Assembly (NCBI RefSeq): GCF_002214805.1
Contig: NZ_CP019914.1
Coordinates: forward strand, 1,488,001 to 1,552,000
Origin: Brachyspira hampsonii
Lineage (GTDB): Bacteria > Spirochaetota > Brachyspiria > Brachyspirales > Brachyspiraceae
Length of the DNA stretch: 64,000 nucleotides
Reading direction: 5' to 3'
A program made the translations under genes and the position numbers. This document shows, in pieces, positions 7,408 to 36,928 of the stretch; within the stretch, counting starts at the first letter, position 1, and each line of letters starts with the position of its first letter. A model generated the notes under the pieces. The model was given only the letters and a program-made list of their open reading frames with translations, did no database searches and was not told where the DNA came from.

Positions 7408-9714
7408 ATGTACAATACAAGGATGGAAAATCTTTTAAATGAAGTTTCATACAGACTTAATAATGAAGATTATCATCAAACTCTTGAAATATTAGATGTC
7501 ATACTTAAAAAAGTTCCTAAAAATTATAGAGCAAATCTATATAAAGGACAGGTATGTGTAGAACTTAAAGAATATGAAGATGCTGTAAGATATTTTGAAG
7601 AGGCAAAAAAAGTAGATATAAAAACTTTTAAATCTTATAACCTTCTTGGAATAAGTTATCATGCCATAAAACAGTATGACAAAGCTATAGAATGTTTTAA
7701 TGAAACTTTAAAAATTACCCCTAATTCTTTTAAAGCATACAATCTTCTTGGTATAAGCTATTTTGAAAAAAAAGATTATACTAATGCTATAGAAAATTTT
7801 AATAAAGCTATAGAAATTAATCCTAAATATGATAAGGCTTTTAATAATTTGGCTCTATTCTATTATAAAAATAAAAAATATAATGAAGCTATAGAGTTTT
7901 TTGAGCATTCAAAATCTTTAGATGAAAGAGTATTTAAAGCTTATGATATGCTTGGAATGAGTTACTATAATATAAATAATTATGACAAGGCTATAGAATG
8001 CTTTTCTAAATTCCTTCAGTATAATAATAAATCATATAAAATAGCAAATACTTTAGGTGCGGTTTATTCTTTCTTAAAAGATTATGATAATGCCATAAAA
8101 TATTTCAATATAGCCATAGATATTAACCCTAAATATGCAAATGCCTATAATAATTTAGCTTTAGTATATTTTAATAGAAAATTATTTGATAAGGCAGCAC
8201 TTTATTTTGATAAGGCTAAAAAATTAGATATTAATGCTTTTACTGATTATAATAAACTAGGAATAAGCTACTACTCTAAAAAATATTATTATGAAGCTAT
8301 AGAATGTTTTGAAAAAGTTATAGAAAAAAATAATAATGCTTATAAGGCTTATAACTTTATAGGTATATGCTACTCATCTAATGAAGAATATGATAAAGCT
8401 ATAAACTATTTCAATAAATCTATAGAAATTAATGACAGATATTATAAGGCTTATAATAATTTAGCACTCGCCTATTATAATTTAAAAGATTATAATAATG
8501 CAATAGAAAATTTCAATAAAGCAATAGATATAAATAATAATAATGCAGATTCATATAACGGCATAGGTTTATCCTACTATAATTTAGGGGAAAAAGAAAA
8601 ATCATTGATTTATTTAAATAGAGCGTTAGAACTTAATCCTTCATACAGTAATTCTTATCAGATATTATTTAATATATATTTTGATTTGGAAGAATATGAT
8701 AATGCTTTAAGTATTGCAGACAAAATTATAGAAGTAAATCCTTATTCATTTAAGCATTATGATAAATTGATTTCAATATGCTTTAATAATAAAGATTATA
8801 ATAAAGTGATAGAATATGCATCAAGAACAGATAAAAGAGATGATGATATTTATAATATGCTGGCACAGTCATACTATAGAATAAAAGATTATGATAATTC
8901 TTCTATATGCTATAATAAATTAATAGAAAATAAAAAATCAGATTTTGAACTTTATAATAATTTAGCTGTTATATATTACTTGAAAAAAGATTATGATTCA
9001 CTTTTAAATACTTATTTCAGATATATAGATAATTTTGATTTAAATCATCATAATTTTGCAAGCTACAATATATTTTTACTATCATATACTTTATTGAAAG
9101 CAAATATAATAAAATACAATGACTTTCTAAACCTATTTGAAAAATCTTTAAATAAAACTATAGAGTTTCATAATATACATAAAACTAATTCTTCTTATAC
9201 TCTATATAAAAATATTAACTATAATACAGATACTCTTAAATTATTATTAGATAAAAAAACAGAAACTGAAAATATATTGAATATCTTAGAAAATACAATT
9301 GATGCCGGAAAATTTGCGGCTATTAAACCTGTTATAGAAAAATTTAATGAAAAAATGAATATTAATTTATCTTCATTTAGTTCATCTATTAATAATTTAG
9401 AAAATAATATTATATGCTTAGAATATGAAACCCAAGACTCAATTATAATCAAAACAAAAAACCGTAATGAAGAAGAAAACATTTACGGAAAAACGGCTAA
9501 GTTTATTACTAAAGAAGATAATATACATTATGATACTTTACTTTCAATATTCAGCTATAATTCAGAAAATAAAAGTGATGATTACAGAGTAATTTTTAAC
9601 AATATAAAAATAAAAAATATATATTTCCCTAAAAACTTTGATGATTCTAATATAGAGATTATAAGAAGAATTATAAATGATGAGAGTATTAAACTCTGCA
9701 AATTAGAGAATTAA
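7408..9714 (+). CDS. Large TPR repeat protein (768 aa)
   Basis: At least 14 consecutive TPR units of about 34 residues fill residues 1-530 (for example YNLLGISYFEKKDYTNAIENF then NKAIEINPKYDKAFNNLALF). They are close to one another in sequence, which suggests internal expansion. Residues 530-768 form a separate, non-repeat domain with helical and beta segments that I cannot assign. No signal peptide or TM helix. TPR arrays are binding scaffolds; no partner is evident. It has its own promoter. Brachyspira-like genomes are rich in such genes; this one is unrelated in its C-terminus to the one at 4233. Confidence 0.88.
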   Translation: MYNTRMENLLNEVSYRLNNEDYHQTLEILDVILKKVPKNYRANLYKGQVCVELKEYEDAVRYFEEAKKVDIKTFKSYNLLGISYHAIKQYDKAIECFNETLKITPNSFKAYNLLGISYFEKKDYTNAIENFNKAIEINPKYDKAFNNLALFYYKNKKYNEAIEFFEHSKSLDERVFKAYDMLGMSYYNINNYDKAIECFSKFLQYNNKSYKIANTLGAVYSFLKDYDNAIKYFNIAIDINPKYANAYNNLALVYFNRKLFDKAALYFDKAKKLDINAFTDYNKLGISYYSKKYYYEAIECFEKVIEKNNNAYKAYNFIGICYSSNEEYDKAINYFNKSIEINDRYYKAYNNLALAYYNLKDYNNAIENFNKAIDINNNNADSYNGIGLSYYNLGEKEKSLIYLNRALELNPSYSNSYQILFNIYFDLEEYDNALSIADKIIEVNPYSFKHYDKLISICFNNKDYNKVIEYASRTDKRDDDIYNMLAQSYYRIKDYDNSSICYNKLIENKKSDFELYNNLAVIYYLKKDYDSLLNTYFRYIDNFDLNHHNFASYNIFLLSYTLLKANIIKYNDFLNLFEKSLNKTIEFHNIHKTNSSYTLYKNINYNTDTLKLLLDKKTETENILNILENTIDAGKFAAIKPVIEKFNEKMNINLSSFSSSINNLENNIICLEYETQDSIIIKTKNRNEEENIYGKTAKFITKEDNIHYDTLLSIFSYNSENKSDDYRVIFNNIKIKNIYFPKNFDDSNIEIIRRIINDESIKLCKLEN

Positions 9715-13517: not shown

Positions 13518-13540
13518 TGTCATAATTTTAAAATTTTATT

Positions 13541-13875
13541 TACATACCCCGCCCTTTATGCTTTGCTGCTATTTTTTAAATTCTAGTTTTAATTATCTTT
13601 AAAGCCAAATTAGAATAGTTAACACCCACCCAAGTGTTATTTAAATTCAAAAACTGCTTAACGCACGGTAAATAAAATTTATGATATAATAAAATTTGAA
13701 TTAAAAATAAACTTATATTTTAGCTTCATTCTGCGTGCGGTATATGGTTATAAACTTAAAAAAATCTTGGGTGGGCAGCTAAAAATTCTAATTAAACAAA
13801 AAAGAAAAGAAAAATTGAAATTACAAATAAAAGTTATAATACTAAAGGGTGGGAAAATGTAATTAAAAACTTAAA
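13541..13875. repeat. Dispersed G-rich modular repeat, copy 1 (large imperfect palindrome)
   Basis: Fills the gap between the converging scpB and the gene at 13897. From left to right: ACCCCGCCCTTTA (13546-13558), CACCCACCCAAG, ACGCACGGTA (13661-13670), about 60 bp AT-rich, CTGCGTGCGG (13731-13740), CTTGGGTGGGC, and CTAAAGGGTGGGAAAATG (13842-13859). The boxes are arranged symmetrically, so the whole region is one large imperfect inverted repeat. The same boxes recur at 28104-29005, 30391-30910, 37037-37497, 55339-55660, 62813-62907 and 63935-63953. No ORF of note. Confidence 0.8.
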
Positions 13876-13896
13876 TACACTGTTAATTAAAAAATT

Positions 13897-14649
13897 TTAT
13901 ATACTATCATTATTTCTGCCAAAAGATACACCTATATAAAACATAAATGATAAAGAAGATAATTGATAATTCTTTATTAAAGTTTTATCAATTATTTTTA
14001 TATTATTAGTATTATAAGGCATTGAAAAATCATAAAGTATATAAGCTCCGTATAAAAAAGCTAATTTTTCAGTGATATAAGAAAGTCCGTCGAAGTTTAT
14101 TTTTATATAAGGAGATACAGGAACTTTATATATTGTTTTTATAGTATCGAAATTCCAGCTTTTTTTATCCTGATGCATTAAAGAGCCTTCAAAAAAACCT
14201 TCTTTTCTATTTCTATCAATTTGAGCATATAAAGGTATTTTTATTCCCGCACCTATTCCTAATGAAAAATTATTAAAATTGATTTTAGGATTAAAGCCAA
14301 TTAAAATATTATGAAATGTTAAAGTTTCTGTAACTTTAAAATAATTATATGAATCAGCATAAGGATATTCATAAGTTATAGTATTAGCATTTAAATAATA
14401 TCCCAATTCAAAAAGAAAACTTATAGAGCTTATGGATATATTTTTATTCAATGCCAAATTATAACCAAGCTGAGTAATTACTCCAAACTCTCCTGCTAAA
14501 TTTCCTTTTATACTTTCATAAGTATGACTAGGACGGCTTAATGTTATAGATGCAAAACTCCAATTGATACCAAAGGGAATAAATGCATTTACTTCAAATT
14601 GTGCAAATAAAGTTATATTTACAATTAAAAAAATAATTACTGCTTTCAT
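13897..14649 (-). CDS. Probable outer-membrane beta-barrel protein (250 aa)
   Basis: Signal peptide (MKAVIIFLIVNITLFAQ, cleavage after about residue 16). The mature part is rich in alternating aromatic and hydrophobic strands (FELGYYLNANTITYEY, SLGIGAGIKIPLYAQI, FMFYIGVSFGRN), as in small spirochaetal outer-membrane porin-like proteins. No named family recognised. There is no Shine-Dalgarno before the ATG at 14649; a perfect 19-bp inverted repeat ends 7 nt upstream. Function unknown; the barrel call is from pattern only. Confidence 0.7.
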   Translation of the reverse strand: MKAVIIFLIVNITLFAQFEVNAFIPFGINWSFASITLSRPSHTYESIKGNLAGEFGVITQLGYNLALNKNISISSISFLFELGYYLNANTITYEYPYADSYNYFKVTETLTFHNILIGFNPKINFNNFSLGIGAGIKIPLYAQIDRNRKEGFFEGSLMHQDKKSWNFDTIKTIYKVPVSPYIKINFDGLSYITEKLAFLYGAYILYDFSMPYNTNNIKIIDKTLIKNYQLSSLSFMFYIGVSFGRNNDSI

Positions 14650-14656
14650 ATTATTG

Positions 14657-14713
14657 TTAAATAAAAATTGTTCGCTTATAATCCTATGCCAGAGGCGAAC
14701 AATTTTTATTTAA
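14657..14713. terminator. Perfect 19-bp inverted repeat in front of the 13897-14649 gene
   Basis: Arms TTAAATAAAAATTGTTCGC (14657-14675) and GCGAACAATTTTTATTTAA (14695-14713) are perfectly complementary around a 19-nt loop. It lies 50 bp downstream of the lipoprotein gene at 14763 and 7 bp upstream of the next start codon on the same strand. It is probably a terminator for the former, but its position could also control translation or processing of the latter. Confidence 0.65.
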
Positions 14714-14762
14714 TCCTCCTTAATTATTTAATTTCAAAAATTATTCTGCATCTTTATAAAAA

Positions 14763-15332
14763 TTAATAAACTGGTATTATACCATTTGCCTGAAGTGAAG
14801 AATATATAAGTATTGTAAGGATAACAATTTTATAATTATAATTTTCTTTATCTGATAAATAGCTGTAAGTTTTAATGCTGTTCATTAGGCTGTCTAAATC
14901 TGTCCCCAAATCTATTATCATAGTATTACTGCCATTAACTTGTTTGTAAAAAGTTAATGTTAATTGACTGCCGTTTATACTTACATTAGTAATTCTAAAA
15001 TTAACTGTTAACCCCATACCTCTATAAGAAGCATAAAGTATATGGTCTATATTTTTATAATCATTTCTGTTAAAATTTATAGTAAATAGATCATTTTTTA
15101 TATATAAATCGTATGATGTACTAGTACCCAATTCTAAACACCATATATTTGTAAAATCATCGGCAAAATCTTTTAATTTAAATTGCATTGTAGAAGTTAC
15201 ATTTTGGGAAATATATCCATTTTCTACATACTGAATTTCAACATCTCTTTCATTAGGGTCTAGTATTTTTACATTATTGCAAAAAGTTATAAAGAGCATT
15301 AAAAAAGCTATTAATAATATATTTTTAATCAT
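14763..15332 (-). CDS. Hypothetical lipoprotein (189 aa)
   Basis: Short hydrophobic leader ending in FITFC (MIKNILLIAFLMLFITFC), a plausible lipobox with Cys18. The mature part is beta-rich with no family I recognise, and a hydrophobic stretch IVILTILIYSSLQANGII is near the C-terminus. AAGG precedes the ATG. It sits upstream of a probable outer-membrane protein gene on the same strand, separated by a strong hairpin. Role unknown, probably envelope. Confidence 0.7.
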   Translation of the reverse strand: MIKNILLIAFLMLFITFCNNVKILDPNERDVEIQYVENGYISQNVTSTMQFKLKDFADDFTNIWCLELGTSTSYDLYIKNDLFTINFNRNDYKNIDHILYASYRGMGLTVNFRITNVSINGSQLTLTFYKQVNGSNTMIIDLGTDLDSLMNSIKTYSYLSDKENYNYKIVILTILIYSSLQANGIIPVY

Positions 15333-28103: not shown

Positions 28104-28611
28104 AAACGCACGCAAAATAAAACTAAAAATATAGATTTCTTTGTAATTCAAATTTTATTATATTTTTAATTTGGTTTACCGTGCGTTAAATGATTTTTTA
28201 AATCTAATCATCACTAGGGCGGGGGCTAGCAAATTCTAATTGGGCTATAAAGATAGTAAATATTAAAATCCAAAGTAAAGCAGTAAATTTTAAAGGGAGG
28301 GGTATGTAGATAAAGTTTTAAAACTTATTTTTCACTCCCCACCCTCTAGGATTATGACTTTAATTTGTAATTATTGTTTTTCATTTCTTTTTTATTTTAC
28401 CTGTTATTTTTGCTGCCCACCCAAGATTTTTTTTAAATTTATAGCGTATTCACCGCACGCAAAGTAAAATTAAAAATATAGATTTATTTGTAATTCAAAT
28501 TTTATTACATTGTTAATTTAGTTACCGTGCGTTAAATGATTTTTTAATCTCTAATCCTCGCTAGGGCGAGTACTAACAAATTCTAATTAGGCTATAAAGA
28601 TAGTAAATATT
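28104..28611. repeat. Dispersed G-rich modular repeats, copies 2 and 3
   Basis: Two 82-bp units bounded by ACGCACGC/ACCGCACGC and ACCGTGCGTT: 28106-28190 and 28452-28533. Between them lie CACTAGGGCGGGGGCTAGC (28212-28230), a GGGAGGGG box (28295) paired with CTCCCCACCC (28335-28344), and GCTGCCCACCCAAGA (28412-28426). Much of the sequence between boxes is also conserved between copies, including the CTAATT-GGC-TATAAAGATAGTAAATATT stretch. No coding capacity. Confidence 0.8.
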
Positions 28612-29005
28612 AAAATCCAAAGTAAGGCTGTAAATTTTGAAGGTCTAGTTTTTAAATTAAAGTTTAAAAGTTATTTTTTATCAACTTTTCCCGCAGCAAA
28701 AGTTGCAAAAGTGCTAATTTTTTATAATATGATTTTATAAATTATTATTAAATAAATTCTTAAATTTACTCAACACTTTTGTAAATACTATAATTTCTAA
28801 TTAAGTTATAAAGATAATCAATATAAAAATCCAAAGTAAAGCTATAAATTTTAAAGGGAGGGGTATGTAGATAAAGTTTTAAAACTTATTTTTCACTCCC
28901 CCACCCTATAGGATTATGACTTTAATTTGTCATTATTATTTTATGTTTTCTTTTTGTTTAAAAAGAGTTTATAAAAACCCACCTAATATTTTTTTAAATT
29001 TGTAA
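28612..29005 (+). repeat. Long direct repeat, left copy, flanking the zinc-ribbon gene
   Basis: About 390 bp that recurs almost base for base at 30391-30777, on the other side of the gene at 29163. It contains the hairpin CAACTTTT-CCCGCAGC-AAAAGTTG, an AAAGGGAGGGG box (28853-28863) and a CCCCCACCCTATAG box (28898-28911), and ends in the ACCCACCTAATATTTTTTTAA stretch. Confidence 0.85.
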
Positions 29006-29162
29006 TGAGTTCACATCATTAACAATATATTAAATGAATAAAGATCAATCAATTAAAGCATGTTAACTATAAAATTAATATATTTATTATGCATAGAGTT
29101 TAACTATTATAAAAATTAATTGTTATAAATTAGTCAGATTTATTTAAAAAAGAGGTAAAACC

Positions 29163-30287
29163 ATGTTTAAATATAAATGCGATAAATGTGGATTAGAATT
29201 AGGTTATAAAGGTTTATGCTTTAAATATAAGGCAGAAGAGGAGAGAAACAAAACTCTTACCTTAACCGATAATGAAATAAAAGAAATGATAAGTAAATAT
29301 GTAAAAAATCTAAAAGAAAAAGATGTTGATAAAGAATTGATAAAAGGCATTTACATTTATGATTTAATTGCATATATAAATATAGACTTAAAAGATGTAG
29401 CTAAAAAAGCATTAGAGAAAGAAATCTACTATCCTGAAGTATTTTATTATAAAGCTAGTGAAGAAATAAGAGATGAACTTATAAAAAGAATAAGAGCGAC
29501 TAAAGATTATTCTGAAGGAGCCAATTTACTATCATGTTTGGCTATGCAGGGAGATGATGTTTCACTTGACTGCTTATACGATTTTGAAATGAATCCAAGA
29601 GAATGGAGGAATAAACTTCATGTAGATCCTTCTATTTATGCTGAATGTGCAGGTTGGACTTTTGATAAAGATAAAAAAAGACAAATACTTAATTTTGATA
29701 AATGTTATTATTTAGATAAGGCTAAAAGCAAAGAAGAAAAAGAAAAAAGCCCTATTAAAATATCTTCATTAAGAGATGAAAATTGTCCCGAATGCGGATG
29801 CCAAACTATGGATATGGTTACTATTAATGGCAGAGATGAAAGACTTAAATTTATAGGTGTTGATGGCATAATAAAAGCTTCATGCTGTCCTAACTGTGTA
29901 ACTTATAATACAACTTATTCACAATATGATTTAAAAGGTGGAAGCCAAATACTTCCTTTTGATAAAGAGTCTGAAAATTATTATCATTCTGAAGAAAATT
30001 ATATAGAGGAAGAAGAATTAAATTTAATGCATAATAATAATTATATACTTTCAAAACAGGAAGTTCCTTTATTTTATGGTGCATTTGATGATACTTTAAA
30101 TACCATAGGTGGATTTGCTAATTGGGTTCAAGATTGGGAATATATAAAATGTCCAAACTGCGGAAAGAAAATGAAATATTTAATGCAAATTCATTGGCAT
30201 ACTATTGAATCTATGGCAGAAGGTACTTTATTTATAGAAATTTGTACAGACTGTAATATTACAGCAATGTTCCACCAGCAAACTTGA
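29163..30287 (+). CDS. Zinc-ribbon protein with DUF1963-like C-terminus (374 aa)
   Basis: Three Cys-pair motifs: CDKCGLELGYKGLC at the N-terminus, CPECGCQT...CCPNC around residues 212-245, and CPNCGKKM...CTDCN in the last 45 residues. A helical middle part contains EWRNKLHVDPSIYAECAGW and CYYLDKA. The C-terminus (IGGFANWVQDWEYIKCPNCGKKMKYLMQIHW...EGTLFIEICTDC) resembles the end of YwqG/DUF1963-type proteins. Function unknown. AGAGG precedes the ATG. The gene sits alone between two near-identical repeats of about 390 bp, suggesting acquisition or mobility of the segment. Confidence 0.7.
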   Translation: MFKYKCDKCGLELGYKGLCFKYKAEEERNKTLTLTDNEIKEMISKYVKNLKEKDVDKELIKGIYIYDLIAYINIDLKDVAKKALEKEIYYPEVFYYKASEEIRDELIKRIRATKDYSEGANLLSCLAMQGDDVSLDCLYDFEMNPREWRNKLHVDPSIYAECAGWTFDKDKKRQILNFDKCYYLDKAKSKEEKEKSPIKISSLRDENCPECGCQTMDMVTINGRDERLKFIGVDGIIKASCCPNCVTYNTTYSQYDLKGGSQILPFDKESENYYHSEENYIEEEELNLMHNNNYILSKQEVPLFYGAFDDTLNTIGGFANWVQDWEYIKCPNCGKKMKYLMQIHWHTIESMAEGTLFIEICTDCNITAMFHQQT

Positions 30288-30390
30288 TTTTATATGTTTT
30301 TTTATTATTTACTCTATCTCTGTATGAGTATAAATAATCCATTCATTATATTTATATCTATTGTACTTTTTTTATTGTTTTTATTCTTTA

Positions 30391-30910
30391 AAATAAAGCA
30401 GTAAATTTTAAATGTCTAGTTTTTAAATTAAAGTTTAAAAGTTATTTTTTATCAACTTTTCCCGCAGCAAAAGTTGCAAAAGTGCTAATTTTTTATAATA
30501 TGATTTTAGCAATCATTATTAAATAAATTCTTAAATTTACTCAACACTTTTGTAAATACTATAATTTCTAATTAAGTTATAAAGATAATCAATATAAAAA
30601 TACAAAGTAAAGCTATAAATTTTAAAAGGCGGGGTATGTAAATAAAGTTTTAAAGCTTAATTACATTTTCCCACCCTATAGGTTTATAATTTTAATTTGT
30701 AATTGTTATTTTATGTTTTCTTTTTGTTTAAAAAGAATTTATAAAAACCCACCCAAGATTTTTTTAAATTTATAGCGTATTCTCACCGCACGCAGAATAA
30801 AATTAAAAATCTAAATTTATTTATAATTCTAATTTTATTATATTTTTAATTTGGTTTACCGTGCGTTAAATAATTTTTAAATCTAATCAACACTTTGGCG
30901 GATACTGAAA
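30391..30910. repeat. Long direct repeat, right copy, continuing into dispersed repeat copy 4
   Basis: 30391-30777 repeats 28612-29005 with a few substitutions (same CCCGCAGC hairpin, AAAGGCGGGG at 30626, CCCACCCTATAG at 30670-30681). It then runs into a complete 82-bp unit: ACCGCACGC at 30785-30793 and ACCGTGCGTTAAA at 30858-30870. In the left copy the corresponding unit is degenerate. Confidence 0.82.
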
Positions 30911-32862: not shown

Positions 32863-33114
32863 TTAATCGTCCCATTCCTGACCTAATAAATTACCTGCTT
32901 TATCAATGTATAATTCCATCATATTATTCATTTTAACTTTATATACATTGTAATGCTCCATCTCTACTGCCCAAATCTGAGCCTGAGGATAAGTTCTCTT
33001 AGCAGTTGCTATTACAGCTTGAGGAACTTGATTAAGAGGCACATACCAATCAGCAAATAAAGCTGAAGTGCTTAAAACTGTTAAAGCTACTAATAAACAA
33101 AGTATTTTTTTCAT
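32863..33114 (-). CDS. PepSY-like (DUF2874) periplasmic protein, copy 1 (83 aa)
   Basis: Signal peptide MKKILCLLVALTVLSTSALFA followed by one small PepSY-like/DUF2874 domain: QVPQAVIATAKRTYPQAQIWAVEMEH, YKVKMNNMMELYIDKAGNLLGQEWDD. The protein is identical to that of the next gene (33144-33395), and the DNA differs only at a few synonymous positions. The 281-bp repeat unit includes the intergenic spacer. Family members are secreted and often bind or inhibit periplasmic enzymes; the role here is unknown. Confidence 0.87.
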   Translation of the reverse strand: MKKILCLLVALTVLSTSALFADWYVPLNQVPQAVIATAKRTYPQAQIWAVEMEHYNVYKVKMNNMMELYIDKAGNLLGQEWDD

Positions 33115-33143: not shown

Positions 33144-33395
33144 TTAATCGTCCCATTCCTGACCTAATAGATTGCCTGCTTTATCAATGTATAATTCCAT
33201 CATATTATTCATTTTAACTTTATATACATTGTAATGCTCCATCTCTACTGCCCAAATCTGAGCCTGAGGATAAGTTCTCTTAGCAGTTGCTATTACAGCT
33301 TGAGGAACTTGATTAAGAGGCACATACCAATCAGCAAATAAAGCTGAAGTACTTAAAACTGTTAAAGCTACTAATAAACAAAGTATTTTTTTCAT
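33144..33395 (-). CDS. PepSY-like (DUF2874) periplasmic protein, copy 2 (83 aa)
   Basis: Encodes exactly the same protein as 32863-33114, with the same ribosome-binding site and 29-bp spacer (AAAAAAGGAGTAATATT before the ATG). Visible DNA differences, such as GATTGCC for AAATTACC in the Asn/Leu codons, are silent. This points to a very recent tandem duplication or ongoing gene conversion. It lies between copy 1 and the larger two-domain relative at 33425. Confidence 0.87.
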   Translation of the reverse strand: MKKILCLLVALTVLSTSALFADWYVPLNQVPQAVIATAKRTYPQAQIWAVEMEHYNVYKVKMNNMMELYIDKAGNLLGQEWDD

Positions 33396-34309: not shown

Positions 34310-35389
34310 ATGAAAAAAGTAAATTTATGTTTATTAGGGGCTTCTGGTGCTGTGGGTCAGGAAATGCTTAAAGTATTGGAAGAAAGAAAATTCCCTATCA
34401 ATGAATTAAGACTTCTTGGAAATAGAGAAGCAGGAAAAAAAGTTAAATTTAATGGAAAAGAATACACAATCGAAAAGACAACTAAAGATTCATTCAAAGA
34501 TATGGATATAACATTGGTTGCGGTGGGAGCTGATTTAAGTAAGAAGCTAAGCCCATTAGCAGTAAAAGCAGGAAGTATAATTGTAGATAACAGCAGTGCA
34601 TTTAGAATGGATAAAAATGTTCCTTTAGTAGTTCCTGAAGTTAATCCTGAAGATGTTAAACTTCATAAAGGAATAATAGCCAATCCAAACTGTTCTACAA
34701 TAATAGCTTTAGTAGCATTAGCTCCTCTTCATAAATTTGGAAAAATAAAAAGAATAATAGCTTCTACCTATCAGGCTGTTTCCGGTGCCGGTAAAGAAGG
34801 TATGGAAGAATTAGAACAGCAGATTCAAGATTATGTTGCTAAGAAAAAACTTGTTAACAAAACATTTAAATATCAAATACTTCATAATTTAATTCCTCAA
34901 ATCGACTCATTCGATAAAAACGGATATACTAAAGAAGAATTAAAAATGACTAATGAAGGAAGAAAAATACTTCATGCACCTGATATACAAATAAGTTGTA
35001 CTTGTGTAAGAGTTCCTGTTATAAGAAGCCATAGCGAATCTATTACAGTAGAAACTGAGAAAAAAATCACTGCTAAAAAAGCTAAAGAATTATTATCTAA
35101 AGCAAAAGGCGTGAAAGTAGTTGATGATCCTGCTAAGTTTAAATATCCTATGCCTTTGGATACTTCTGATCAAGATTTAATATATGTTGGAAGAATAAGA
35201 GATGATATCAGTGCTAAAAACTCATTAACATTTTGGTGTGCAGGAGATCAAATAAGAAAAGGGGCTGCTACAAATGCTGTACAAATAGCTGAGCTCCTTT
35301 TACCTGAATTAGAGAAAAAATCTGATAATTCTGTTCAAAAGAAACCTGCTAGAAAACCATGTGTAAGAAAATCAGCAAAAAAACAATAA
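34310..35389 (+). CDS. asd: Aspartate-semialdehyde dehydrogenase
   Basis: Reduces aspartyl phosphate for lysine/diaminopimelate, threonine and methionine synthesis. NADP-binding GASGAVGQEMLKVLEER at residues 9-25, DNSSAFRMD, catalytic Cys128 in ANPNCSTI, YQAVSGAGKEGMEEL, and VPVIRSHSE with the substrate-binding Arg and His. After the normal end (AVQIAELL) a basic tail of about 20 residues (KKPARKPCVRKSAKKQ) is added, which is unusual for the family. Single-gene unit with promoter and terminator. Confidence 0.96.
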   Translation: MKKVNLCLLGASGAVGQEMLKVLEERKFPINELRLLGNREAGKKVKFNGKEYTIEKTTKDSFKDMDITLVAVGADLSKKLSPLAVKAGSIIVDNSSAFRMDKNVPLVVPEVNPEDVKLHKGIIANPNCSTIIALVALAPLHKFGKIKRIIASTYQAVSGAGKEGMEELEQQIQDYVAKKKLVNKTFKYQILHNLIPQIDSFDKNGYTKEELKMTNEGRKILHAPDIQISCTCVRVPVIRSHSESITVETEKKITAKKAKELLSKAKGVKVVDDPAKFKYPMPLDTSDQDLIYVGRIRDDISAKNSLTFWCAGDQIRKGAATNAVQIAELLLPELEKKSDNSVQKKPARKPCVRKSAKKQ

Positions 35390-35407
35390 TTAAATAATTA
35401 GAAATAT

Positions 35408-35446
35408 AGAGGCTATGTAATATATAATACATAGCCTCTTTTTTAT
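35408..35446 (+). terminator. Rho-independent terminator after asd
   Basis: AGAGGCTATGTA (35408-35419) and TACATAGCCTCT (35428-35439) form a perfect 12-bp stem followed by TTTTTT. Confidence 0.93.
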
Positions 35447-35550
35447 TATAAAAAATTAATCTGTTTACTGAAACAAATATAATACTTATTCAAAACTAAA
35501 TCAATAAATATTAGATTTAGTTCAAAAGTATAATTTCAATTAATTAAAAT

Positions 35551-35585
35551 AAAAACAGAGAGATTAATAAAATCTCTCTGTTTTT
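35551..35585. terminator. Terminator after the purine permease gene
   Basis: Perfect 15-bp arms AAAAACAGAGAGATT (35551-35565) and AATCTCTCTGTTTTT (35571-35585). It serves the minus-strand gene at 35618; symmetrical, so it can also act on the plus strand. Confidence 0.92.
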
Positions 35586-35617
35586 AATCTTTAAACAATC
35601 AATTAATTAAATATTAA

Positions 35618-36928
35618 TTATCCTAAATGTTTCTGTATTATAGGCATAAGTATTTTAATTAAAAGAAGTGCTGATAATATCCAAGTTAATAATGATATAT
35701 CTTTATTTTTACCTGAAACAAATTTTAATATAGTAAATGATAATACTCCGAAAGTTATACCTTCAGCTATACTATAAGCGAAAGGCATAAATATTATACA
35801 TATAAAAGCAGGAATTGCCTCTGTATAATCATTGAAATTGATTTCTAATATAGGAGTCATCATAAATAATCCTACTATAATTAAAGCGGGAGCAGTAGCA
35901 GCAGAAGGTATAGCTAAAAATATATGCGATAAAAATAATGAAACAGCAAACAATATAGCAACAACAAGCGAAGTTAATCCGGTTTTACCTCCTTCAGCAA
36001 CACCTGAAGCACTTTCAACATAAGTAGTAACAGTAGAAGTACCTAAACATGCACCTACAACTGTTCCTACAGCATCGGCAAATAAAGCCTGCTTACATCT
36101 AGGAACTTCTCCATTTTTTGTAAGCATATCTGCTTTAGTACATACTCCTACTAATGTACCCACTGTATCAAACATATCAACAAAAAGGAAAGTAAATAGA
36201 ACTATAAACATATTAGGAGTAAATATATTACTGAAATCTAATTTAAAAGCTATTGGTTCTAATGAAGGCGGAATAAAACTTGCATCAGGAGAAAGTTTTG
36301 TAAGTCCCATAGGAATGCCAATTATTGCTGTAATAAATATTCCTAAAAGTATAGCTCCTTTTACATTATATGCTAATAAAATTGCTGTTATAATAAGTCC
36401 TATAATAGCAAGCAATGCACTTCCTGAAGTGATATTTCCAAGTCCAAGCAAAGTAGCATCATTATTTACTATAATCTTAGAATTTTGAAGTCCTATAAAA
36501 GCTATAAATAATCCTATTCCCACAGAAATAGCTCTTTTCATATTAACAGGTATACTATTAACTATAGCCTCTCTTACATTAAAAATGGTAAGAACAACGA
36601 AAATAATACCCTCTATAAATACAGCAGTTAAAGCAGTTTCCCAGCTATACCCCATACCCAATACTACAGTATAAGCAAAGAAAGCATTAAGTCCCATTCC
36701 CGGTGCTAAAGCAAAAGGAAGATTTGCTAGTAAAGACATTATCAAAGTTGCTATTATTGAAGATACTACTGTGGCTGTAAATACTGCCCCCTTATCCATA
36801 CCGGTAGCACTTAGAACACCAGGGTTTACCGCTAGTATATAAGCCATTGTCATAAAAGTAGTAAAACCTGCTATTATCTCTGTTTTTACATTAGTACCAT
36901 ACTCTTTAAGCTTAAAAAATTTTTCCAT
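35618..36928 (-). CDS. AzgA-type NCS2 purine (guanine/hypoxanthine) permease (436 aa)
   Basis: Polytopic inner-membrane transporter with 12-14 hydrophobic segments. It opens with the AzgA pattern EIIAGFTTFMTMAYILAVNP and continues with LPFALAPGMGLNAFFAYTV, FVDMFDTVGTLVGV (TM8 acidic motif), and GTSTVTTYVESASGVAEGGKTGLT (TM10 motif). These place it with hypoxanthine/guanine/adenine permeases rather than uracil or xanthine carriers. No purine riboswitch is recognisable in the roughly 100 bp upstream. Monocistronic with a clear terminator. Confidence 0.93.
   Translation of the reverse strand: MEKFFKLKEYGTNVKTEIIAGFTTFMTMAYILAVNPGVLSATGMDKGAVFTATVVSSIIATLIMSLLANLPFALAPGMGLNAFFAYTVVLGMGYSWETALTAVFIEGIIFVVLTIFNVREAIVNSIPVNMKRAISVGIGLFIAFIGLQNSKIIVNNDATLLGLGNITSGSALLAIIGLIITAILLAYNVKGAILLGIFITAIIGIPMGLTKLSPDASFIPPSLEPIAFKLDFSNIFTPNMFIVLFTFLFVDMFDTVGTLVGVCTKADMLTKNGEVPRCKQALFADAVGTVVGACLGTSTVTTYVESASGVAEGGKTGLTSLVVAILFAVSLFLSHIFLAIPSAATAPALIIVGLFMMTPILEINFNDYTEAIPAFICIIFMPFAYSIAEGITFGVLSFTILKFVSGKNKDISLLTWILSALLLIKILMPIIQKHLG

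Follow-up and report, generated by a model that had tools for sequence, protein, structure and literature searches.

The window analysed here, a stretch of 64,000 nucleotides (G000:C1:1488001-1552000), belongs to the 3.19-Mb, single-contig genome of Brachyspira hampsonii. Within it, genes encoding a methyl-accepting chemotaxis protein (MCP) and a DNA alkylation repair enzyme anchor a slot that holds non-coding repeats and one accessory gene, the only ORF between two direct repeats designated L and R (Table 1). A preliminary description had reported direct repeats of about 390 bp bracketing a single gene, and this arrangement is real: positions 8-393 of 28612-29005 align with 30390-30774 at 93% identity (BLAST, E 2.6e-162), the longest exact runs common to both copies are 95 and 87 bp, and the local alignment of L with R ends at 29004/30775. 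Transposase-coding flanks, as in a composite transposon or an IS-flanked gene, were not found, no ORF of 80 aa or longer lying inside the repeats.

Table 1. Features of the slot and its anchors (coordinates of the window)
Feature	Position	Strand	Remarks
Left anchor, methyl-accepting chemotaxis protein (MCP), 604 aa	26167-27981	-	Pfam MCPsignal, 4.8e-40
A unit 1	28107-28190	+	nhmmer; ~86 bp, inverted CGCACG/CGTGCG ends
B unit 1	28221-28433	+	nhmmer; ~216-bp imperfect palindrome
A unit 2	28453-28536	+	nhmmer
Half B unit	28551-28681	-	nhmmer; overlaps the start of C
Left direct repeat L	28619-29005	+	End of half B, C and B
C piece of L	28650-28785	+	Second dispersed family; 98% identical to 30421-30556
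B unit 2	28788-28999	+	nhmmer; inside L
Upstream segment	29101-29162	+	Common to G006, G008, G022, G023 and G025
Accessory gene, 374 aa	29163-30287	+	Helical N-terminal part and zinc-ribbon parts; possible orphan immunity gene
Imm26 gene remnant (3' end)	30290-30385	-	blastn; in-frame stop
Right direct repeat R	30390-30775	+	End of half B, C and B
B unit 3	30559-30769	+	nhmmer; inside R
A unit 3	30786-30870	+	nhmmer
Right anchor, DNA alkylation repair enzyme, 222 aa	31013-31681	-	Pfam PF08713, 3.7e-61

The repeats are organized as tandem, regular arrays in which A units (~86 bp) and B units (~216 bp) alternate with a period near 345 bp and into which, in this slot, a C piece is inserted. The nhmmer profiles that delineate A and B pooled matches from both strands and are hence symmetrised. 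The imperfect palindrome of the B unit extends over its full length: in a copy-by-copy retest, with the orientation of each copy chosen by means of the symmetrised profile, B matches its own reverse complement at 69.3% (shuffles 59.6 ± 4.3%), and its consensus is predicted to form a hairpin of -61 kcal/mol. A value of -100 kcal/mol was discarded as it derived from a symmetrised consensus. The A unit ends in conserved inverted CGCACG/CGTGCG motifs; an RNA-structure reading of this unit was abandoned, since RNAalifold, given 44 A copies, yields no predicted base pair. No Rfam family was detected in the window, and terminator-like sites occur at chance level (one found, 0.7 expected).

These elements are dispersed well beyond the slot. 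The left repeat is matched in all 26 genomes of the genus, weakly (best E above 1e-7) in G001, G003 and G019, and 63 of its 66 matches in its own genome fall inside positions 112-394, mainly the B part. The earlier assignment of the repeats to a single dispersed family accordingly stands for B, which belongs to the main family, and has to be amended for C, which represents a second one. The C family has eight matches in its own genome, and the only full-length ones among the matches listed are those in these two repeats. C (28650-28785), too, has matches in every one of the 26 genus genomes, those in G003, G019 and G020 being weak. Among the 150 matches listed for the A model in its own genome, at least 116 copies form 77 clusters, 65 of which (84%) lie in the half of the chromosome opposite dnaA (KS p 1e-9); placement is expressed in these terms because noise in the sampled GC skew prevents the replication terminus from being located. 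In relatives scored with the model built from the window genome, the clusters listed in that half number 33 of 43 in G006, 48 of 58 in G008 and 9 of 9 in G009, while G010 lacks such a lean (6 of 13). Searches of phage and plasmid collections gave no match to the array, and a strict pattern found none in viral contigs. A second array in the window (half B-A-half B) lies within the interval 13524-15332 and is followed by two genes, 13897-14649 and 14763-15332, neither with a Pfam match; both are unmatched in the compared stretch of G005, which has about 575 bp between the flanking genes.

The accessory gene belongs to a family characterized by six Cys pairs, which we interpret as three zinc ribbons. 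The Cys-pair motifs noted in the preliminary description are present in the flanked ORF (C6/C9, C208/C211, C242/C245, C330/C333 and C361/C364), and in the window genome the first ribbon lacks an intact second pair, residue 22 being a tyrosine in place of the cysteine found in the 11 other aligned Brachyspira proteins. Loss of this likely zinc ligand possibly marks early decay of the gene. Domain databases offer little guidance: no Pfam model exceeds its cut-off (best PF01096, E 0.021, and DUF6300, E 0.051), nor does any NCBIfam model, PADLOC returns nothing, PHROGs matches are weak (E 0.024 at best) and the protein matches no named immunity family of the Imm type. A structural model based on 14 sequences, five of them from outside the genus, reached a pLDDT of 87.4 and a pTM of 0.87, an earlier one from 12 close sequences having been unusable (pLDDT 39.5). 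Foldseek found no match of the model at E <= 0.001, its best structural match (VIA) has a Z score of 8.4 with an rmsd of 4.0 over 120 residues, the matches being mostly helical-repeat chains, and sequence searches of solved structures yielded marginal matches only.

The gene is matched in 14 of the 26 genus genomes (12 full-length copies, one cut at a contig edge in G020 and a fragment with stops in G017), and Brachyspira accounts for 14 of the 16 matches among 392 Spirochaetota genomes. Plasmid and phage collections contain no match to it. Outside Brachyspira lie five of the 12 loci identified in named genomes, with homologues in Flavonifractor plautii and two Clostridia metagenome-assembled genomes (MAGs; 40-46%), an Oscillospiraceae MAG (35%) and an Accumulibacter MAG (32%). 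The family scan of neighbouring genes covered three of the five outside loci (L079, L080 and L082; neighbours at L081 and L083 were read without it) and identified DUF2262/DUF7021 (L079, L080), DUF6138 (L079), DUF4241 and UPF0167 (L080) and ankyrin repeats (L082); one scanned neighbour has no family and another a sub-threshold match only. Several of these families are, we presume, common in immunity-gene clusters. Given these neighbours and a convergent Imm26 partner in related genomes, our best guess is that the accessory gene is an orphan-immunity gene, an assignment that could prove right or wrong with about equal chance, and against which we count the other Brachyspira loci, where the neighbours scanned include a short-chain dehydrogenase, an acetyltransferase, an acyltransferase, a glycosyltransferase and a flagellin.

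Occupancy of the slot is polymorphic across the genus. Nine Brachyspira genomes carry the two anchors together on a single fetched stretch; the gene occupies the slot in five of them (the window genome G000, G006, G008, G022 and G025) and is absent from the other four (G004, G005, G021 and G024), two of which, G004 and G005, are the closest relatives of the window genome. Fixation of the gene, which the preliminary description had named, for strains, as refuting its reading, does not hold between species. In G023 the gene adjoins the MCP gene on one contig and the alkylation anchor lies on another; the alkylation-gene side, the only side seen in these genomes, lacks the gene in G002 (B. alvinipulli ATCC 51933), G007 (B. 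innocens ATCC 29796), G009, G014, G015, G017 and G018. Genomes G001, G003, G010, G011, G012, G013, G016, G019 and G020 stood outside this survey. The cargo itself varies. Imm26 (PF15428, 1.7e-11) occupies the slot as a whole gene in G006 and G022 and as a split one in G008 and G025, TPR proteins lie between or beside the repeats in G002, G004, G006, G007, G008, G018, G022, G023, G024 and G025, and the barest slot, that of G021, consists of A-B-A. At the alkylation-gene site of G002 (L036/L039, oriented 9134-9268), a 44-45-aa Imm26 fragment of 64-66% identity lies beside the array. Between repeats, the G025 slot (L031, 5496-8752) carries a tandem set of four ORFs of one family, 255-273 aa in length, whose N termini look signal-like; the one that was scanned has no Pfam match.

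The surroundings of the slot are conserved. In a collinear block spanning 21.5-34.3 kb of the window, eight of the 11 gene junctions outside the slot match those of the window to within 12 bp in G004 and G005 alike; the remaining three comprise a junction at 21.5 kb (1758 bp in G004 versus 184) and two at tandem 83-aa genes whose copies could not be distinguished. These tandem genes (32863-33114 and 33144-33395) number one copy in G004 and two in G005. Collinearity with both genomes ends at 35389-35618, beyond which no gene more than 70% identical was found in at least 30 kb fetched further in G004 or G005.

The gene-free slots supply the architecture of an empty site. G004 and G007 display an uninterrupted half B-C-B-A order, with a single repeat beside the alkylation gene; in G007 the gene resides at another locus, and the fetched stretch does not contain the MCP anchor. 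When the left flank of L was joined to the right flank of R inside an identical run, the modelled L x R product aligned with G004 over 584 and with G007 over 548 columns, at 88.7% identity each, while single repeats with their own flanks aligned over less (422-519 columns, 87.2-89.1%). We count against the proposed recombination that R with its own flank reaches a slightly higher identity to G007 (89.1%), over a shorter alignment of 516 columns. The empty slot of G005 lacks C and is therefore not a simple L x R product, and the single-repeat form of G004 and G007 could be ancestral. Of the two outcomes that the preliminary description had envisaged for homologous recombination, excision has comparative support from relatives, whose single-repeat slots align with the modelled product, and amplification finds no support in a genome that holds one copy of the gene.

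L resembles R more closely than it resembles the corresponding copies in relatives. L and R are 93% identical, whereas L and the copies of G004 and G007 are 88% identical; the C parts of L and R agree at 98%, compared with 93% and 96% for G004 and G007; and a tract in the B arm is common to L and R and absent from G004 and G007. Such a pattern is consistent with conversion or duplication within the window lineage. Against the favoured explanation we count a tree of slot copies in which L and R form no clear pair, the tree being unrooted and built from segments with unequal flanks.

The DNA adjoining the gene bears on its age in the slot. The 62 bp preceding it match five slot genomes (those listed for the upstream segment in Table 1) at 55-57 of 61-62 positions, a score reached by none of 300 shuffles; at six other loci of the gene the similarity is at chance level (G002, G007, G009, G013, G014) or weak (G015, 11 of 300). 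In G013 (L004, L028), the upstream DNA of the gene resembles that of G014 in the alignment. An A unit precedes the upstream segment in the same five slot genomes and is unrecognisable in the window. A decayed A unit before the gene was considered and rejected, 29009-29101 scoring at chance level against all 11 loci, and the left junction is consequently not demonstrably shared with relatives. On the other side, Imm26 is the convergent neighbour of the gene in relatives, and the 96-bp remnant in the window is 83-89% identical to the Imm26 genes of G006, G008, G022 and G025 (E 4e-24 to 1e-30). Since only this remnant persists beside R, the window lineage has lost most of Imm26, and a deletion has already happened there. 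R starts directly after the remnant at a junction without repeat-to-repeat homology, which looks illegitimate and likewise counts against the favoured explanation.

With the upstream 62 bp shared by five genomes and the Imm26 partner, whole or split, by four of them, the gene was probably not freshly inserted, and insertion within a repeat copy, the other origin suggested in the preliminary description, finds no backing in the window lineage. Between G000 and G008, the gene and its neighbouring genes have diverged equally (90% and 90%). Discordance in G015 (gene 76%, neighbours 91%) and G013 (gene 89%, alkylation gene 69%) implies that the gene has also moved or evolved unevenly. For the distant G013 lineage, the identity values and the likeness of its upstream DNA to that of G014 suggest horizontal transfer. 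The gene tree has low supports and places G000 with weak support.

The locus is a real, well-resolved case of repeat-bounded gene turnover. We favour, with moderate confidence, the explanation that an accessory gene, perhaps one for orphan immunity or protection, occupies a variable slot of an array prone to homologous recombination. According to this explanation, the slot between the MCP and DNA-alkylation-repair genes would have been built from a genus-wide mosaic repeat of alternating A and B, and the optional gene and its convergent Imm26 would have entered it in an ancestor common to several Brachyspira species or, alternatively, reached it in both lineages as one piece. Directly oriented copies of A, B and C flanking the cargo would then permit homologous recombination, presumably RecA-dependent, through which cargo could be deleted and stretches of repeat exchanged or made uniform. 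Most of Imm26 has been deleted in the window lineage, where L and R would also have become nearly identical by duplication or conversion; one more crossover between L and R, should the process be ongoing, would delete the gene and leave a single-repeat slot as in related species. The mechanism is thus probably ordinary homologous recombination, judging from comparisons of sequence, and the repeats look like a route for the loss and reshuffling of such genes, with the direction of change in each lineage likewise read from these comparisons.

Other explanations were weighed against the same evidence. The A/B arrays might instead be terminator- or REP-like elements of gene ends that reside in gaps and merely flank the gene, whose gains and losses would then arise by illegitimate recombination or by exchange in the flanking genes. 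Such a role agrees with the occurrence of elements in 17 of 41 gaps between convergent genes, as against 19 of 126 between tandem and 8 of 33 between divergent ones (convergent enrichment, p 0.0014, in own-genome regions picked because they bear repeats and with gap length uncontrolled) and with the homology-free junction between Imm26 and R; it is nevertheless unlikely, as C, standing outside the A/B alternation, is duplicated around the gene at 98%, the modelled product matches real slots, and the left array in the window lies between divergent genes. Recent integration of a circle with one repeat, creating the direct repeats in a Campbell-type event, would account for the close similarity of L and R, the lack of the gene in the closest relatives, its discordance with its neighbours in G013 and G015 and a left junction not demonstrably shared with slot genomes. 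We regard it as improbable, because the gene has the same 62-bp segment in front of it and the same Imm26 partner as in the other slot genomes, and its divergence equals that of its neighbours.

A site-specific system, in which A units would serve as integron- or MITE-like attachment sites and a recombinase or transposase would move the cargo, appears very improbable. The cargo borders differ, at an A end on one side and, on the other, at C, at a half B or in the middle of a B unit; the arrays are tandem, with a regular period; the array goes unmatched in the phage, plasmid and viral searches described above; and the genome has no match to the Y1 tyrosine transposase of the RAYT type (PF01797), which is matched in five of 14 control genomes. 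These observations outweigh the conserved inverted ends of A and the varied cargo between units, the two features that speak for such a system.

In integron gene cassettes and VCR arrays, successive palindromic repeats are separated by different genes. The Brachyspira slot shares this layout, but its boundaries are variable and its gene orientation is mixed, in contrast to uniform, attC-like cassette borders. A broader reading, which we hold to be doubtful, is that the A/B arrays are landing pads concentrated opposite dnaA, at which single genes (orphan immunity, TPR and outer-membrane-like genes) would be acquired, exchanged and deleted by homologous recombination, possibly fed by VSH-1, as a recombinase-free counterpart of cassette arrays.

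Repetitive extragenic palindromes and bacterial interspersed mosaic elements (REP/BIME arrays), on which PMC3733652 and PMC2817692 report, consist of short palindromes. Typical units of 20-40 bp occur in high copy, regularly spaced and in alternating orientation, and are associated with a Y1 transposase. The Brachyspira units resemble them in being palindromic, dispersed in large numbers through intergenic gaps, arranged in regular arrays and over-represented at convergent gene ends in the sample from the window genome. They differ in that units of ~86 and ~216 bp, despite their high copy number, are not short palindromes, and in that two distinct palindromes alternate here instead of one REP in alternating orientation, a comparison constrained by the ill-defined orientation of a palindrome. 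Orphan-immunity loci and acquired interbacterial defence (PMC12247911, PMC10470768) share with the slot the optional immunity-type genes, Imm26 standing beside the gene in G006 and G022 and split in G008 and G025; the slot is distinguished by a chromosomal palindromic array, by its one to few genes and by an immunity role that is putative. For tandem paralogous immunity genes in firmicutes, homologous recombination is proposed as the driver of turnover (PMC9484751), the homology there residing in the tandem genes and here in non-coding repeats around unrelated cargo. Brachyspira genome papers, in the sections available, report rearrangements and the VSH-1 gene transfer agent (PMC3163572, PMC2897892, PMC2650404, PMC3532143), with mobile elements near rearrangement sites (PMC3532143); the same sections of these four papers do not describe an intergenic palindromic repeat, and no description of an alternating long-palindrome array in Brachyspira was found in the literature as judged by titles.

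Repeat-mediated gain and loss of genes is of a known kind, and the array appears to represent a new form of dispersed palindromic mosaic repeat. If the favoured explanation is true, this locus illustrates how optional genes enter, replace one another in and leave the genomes of a gut spirochaete genus with no visible mobile element involved, the homology for gene turnover being supplied by non-coding palindromic arrays, and the alternation of long palindromes provides a concrete, testable substrate for genome plasticity in Brachyspira.
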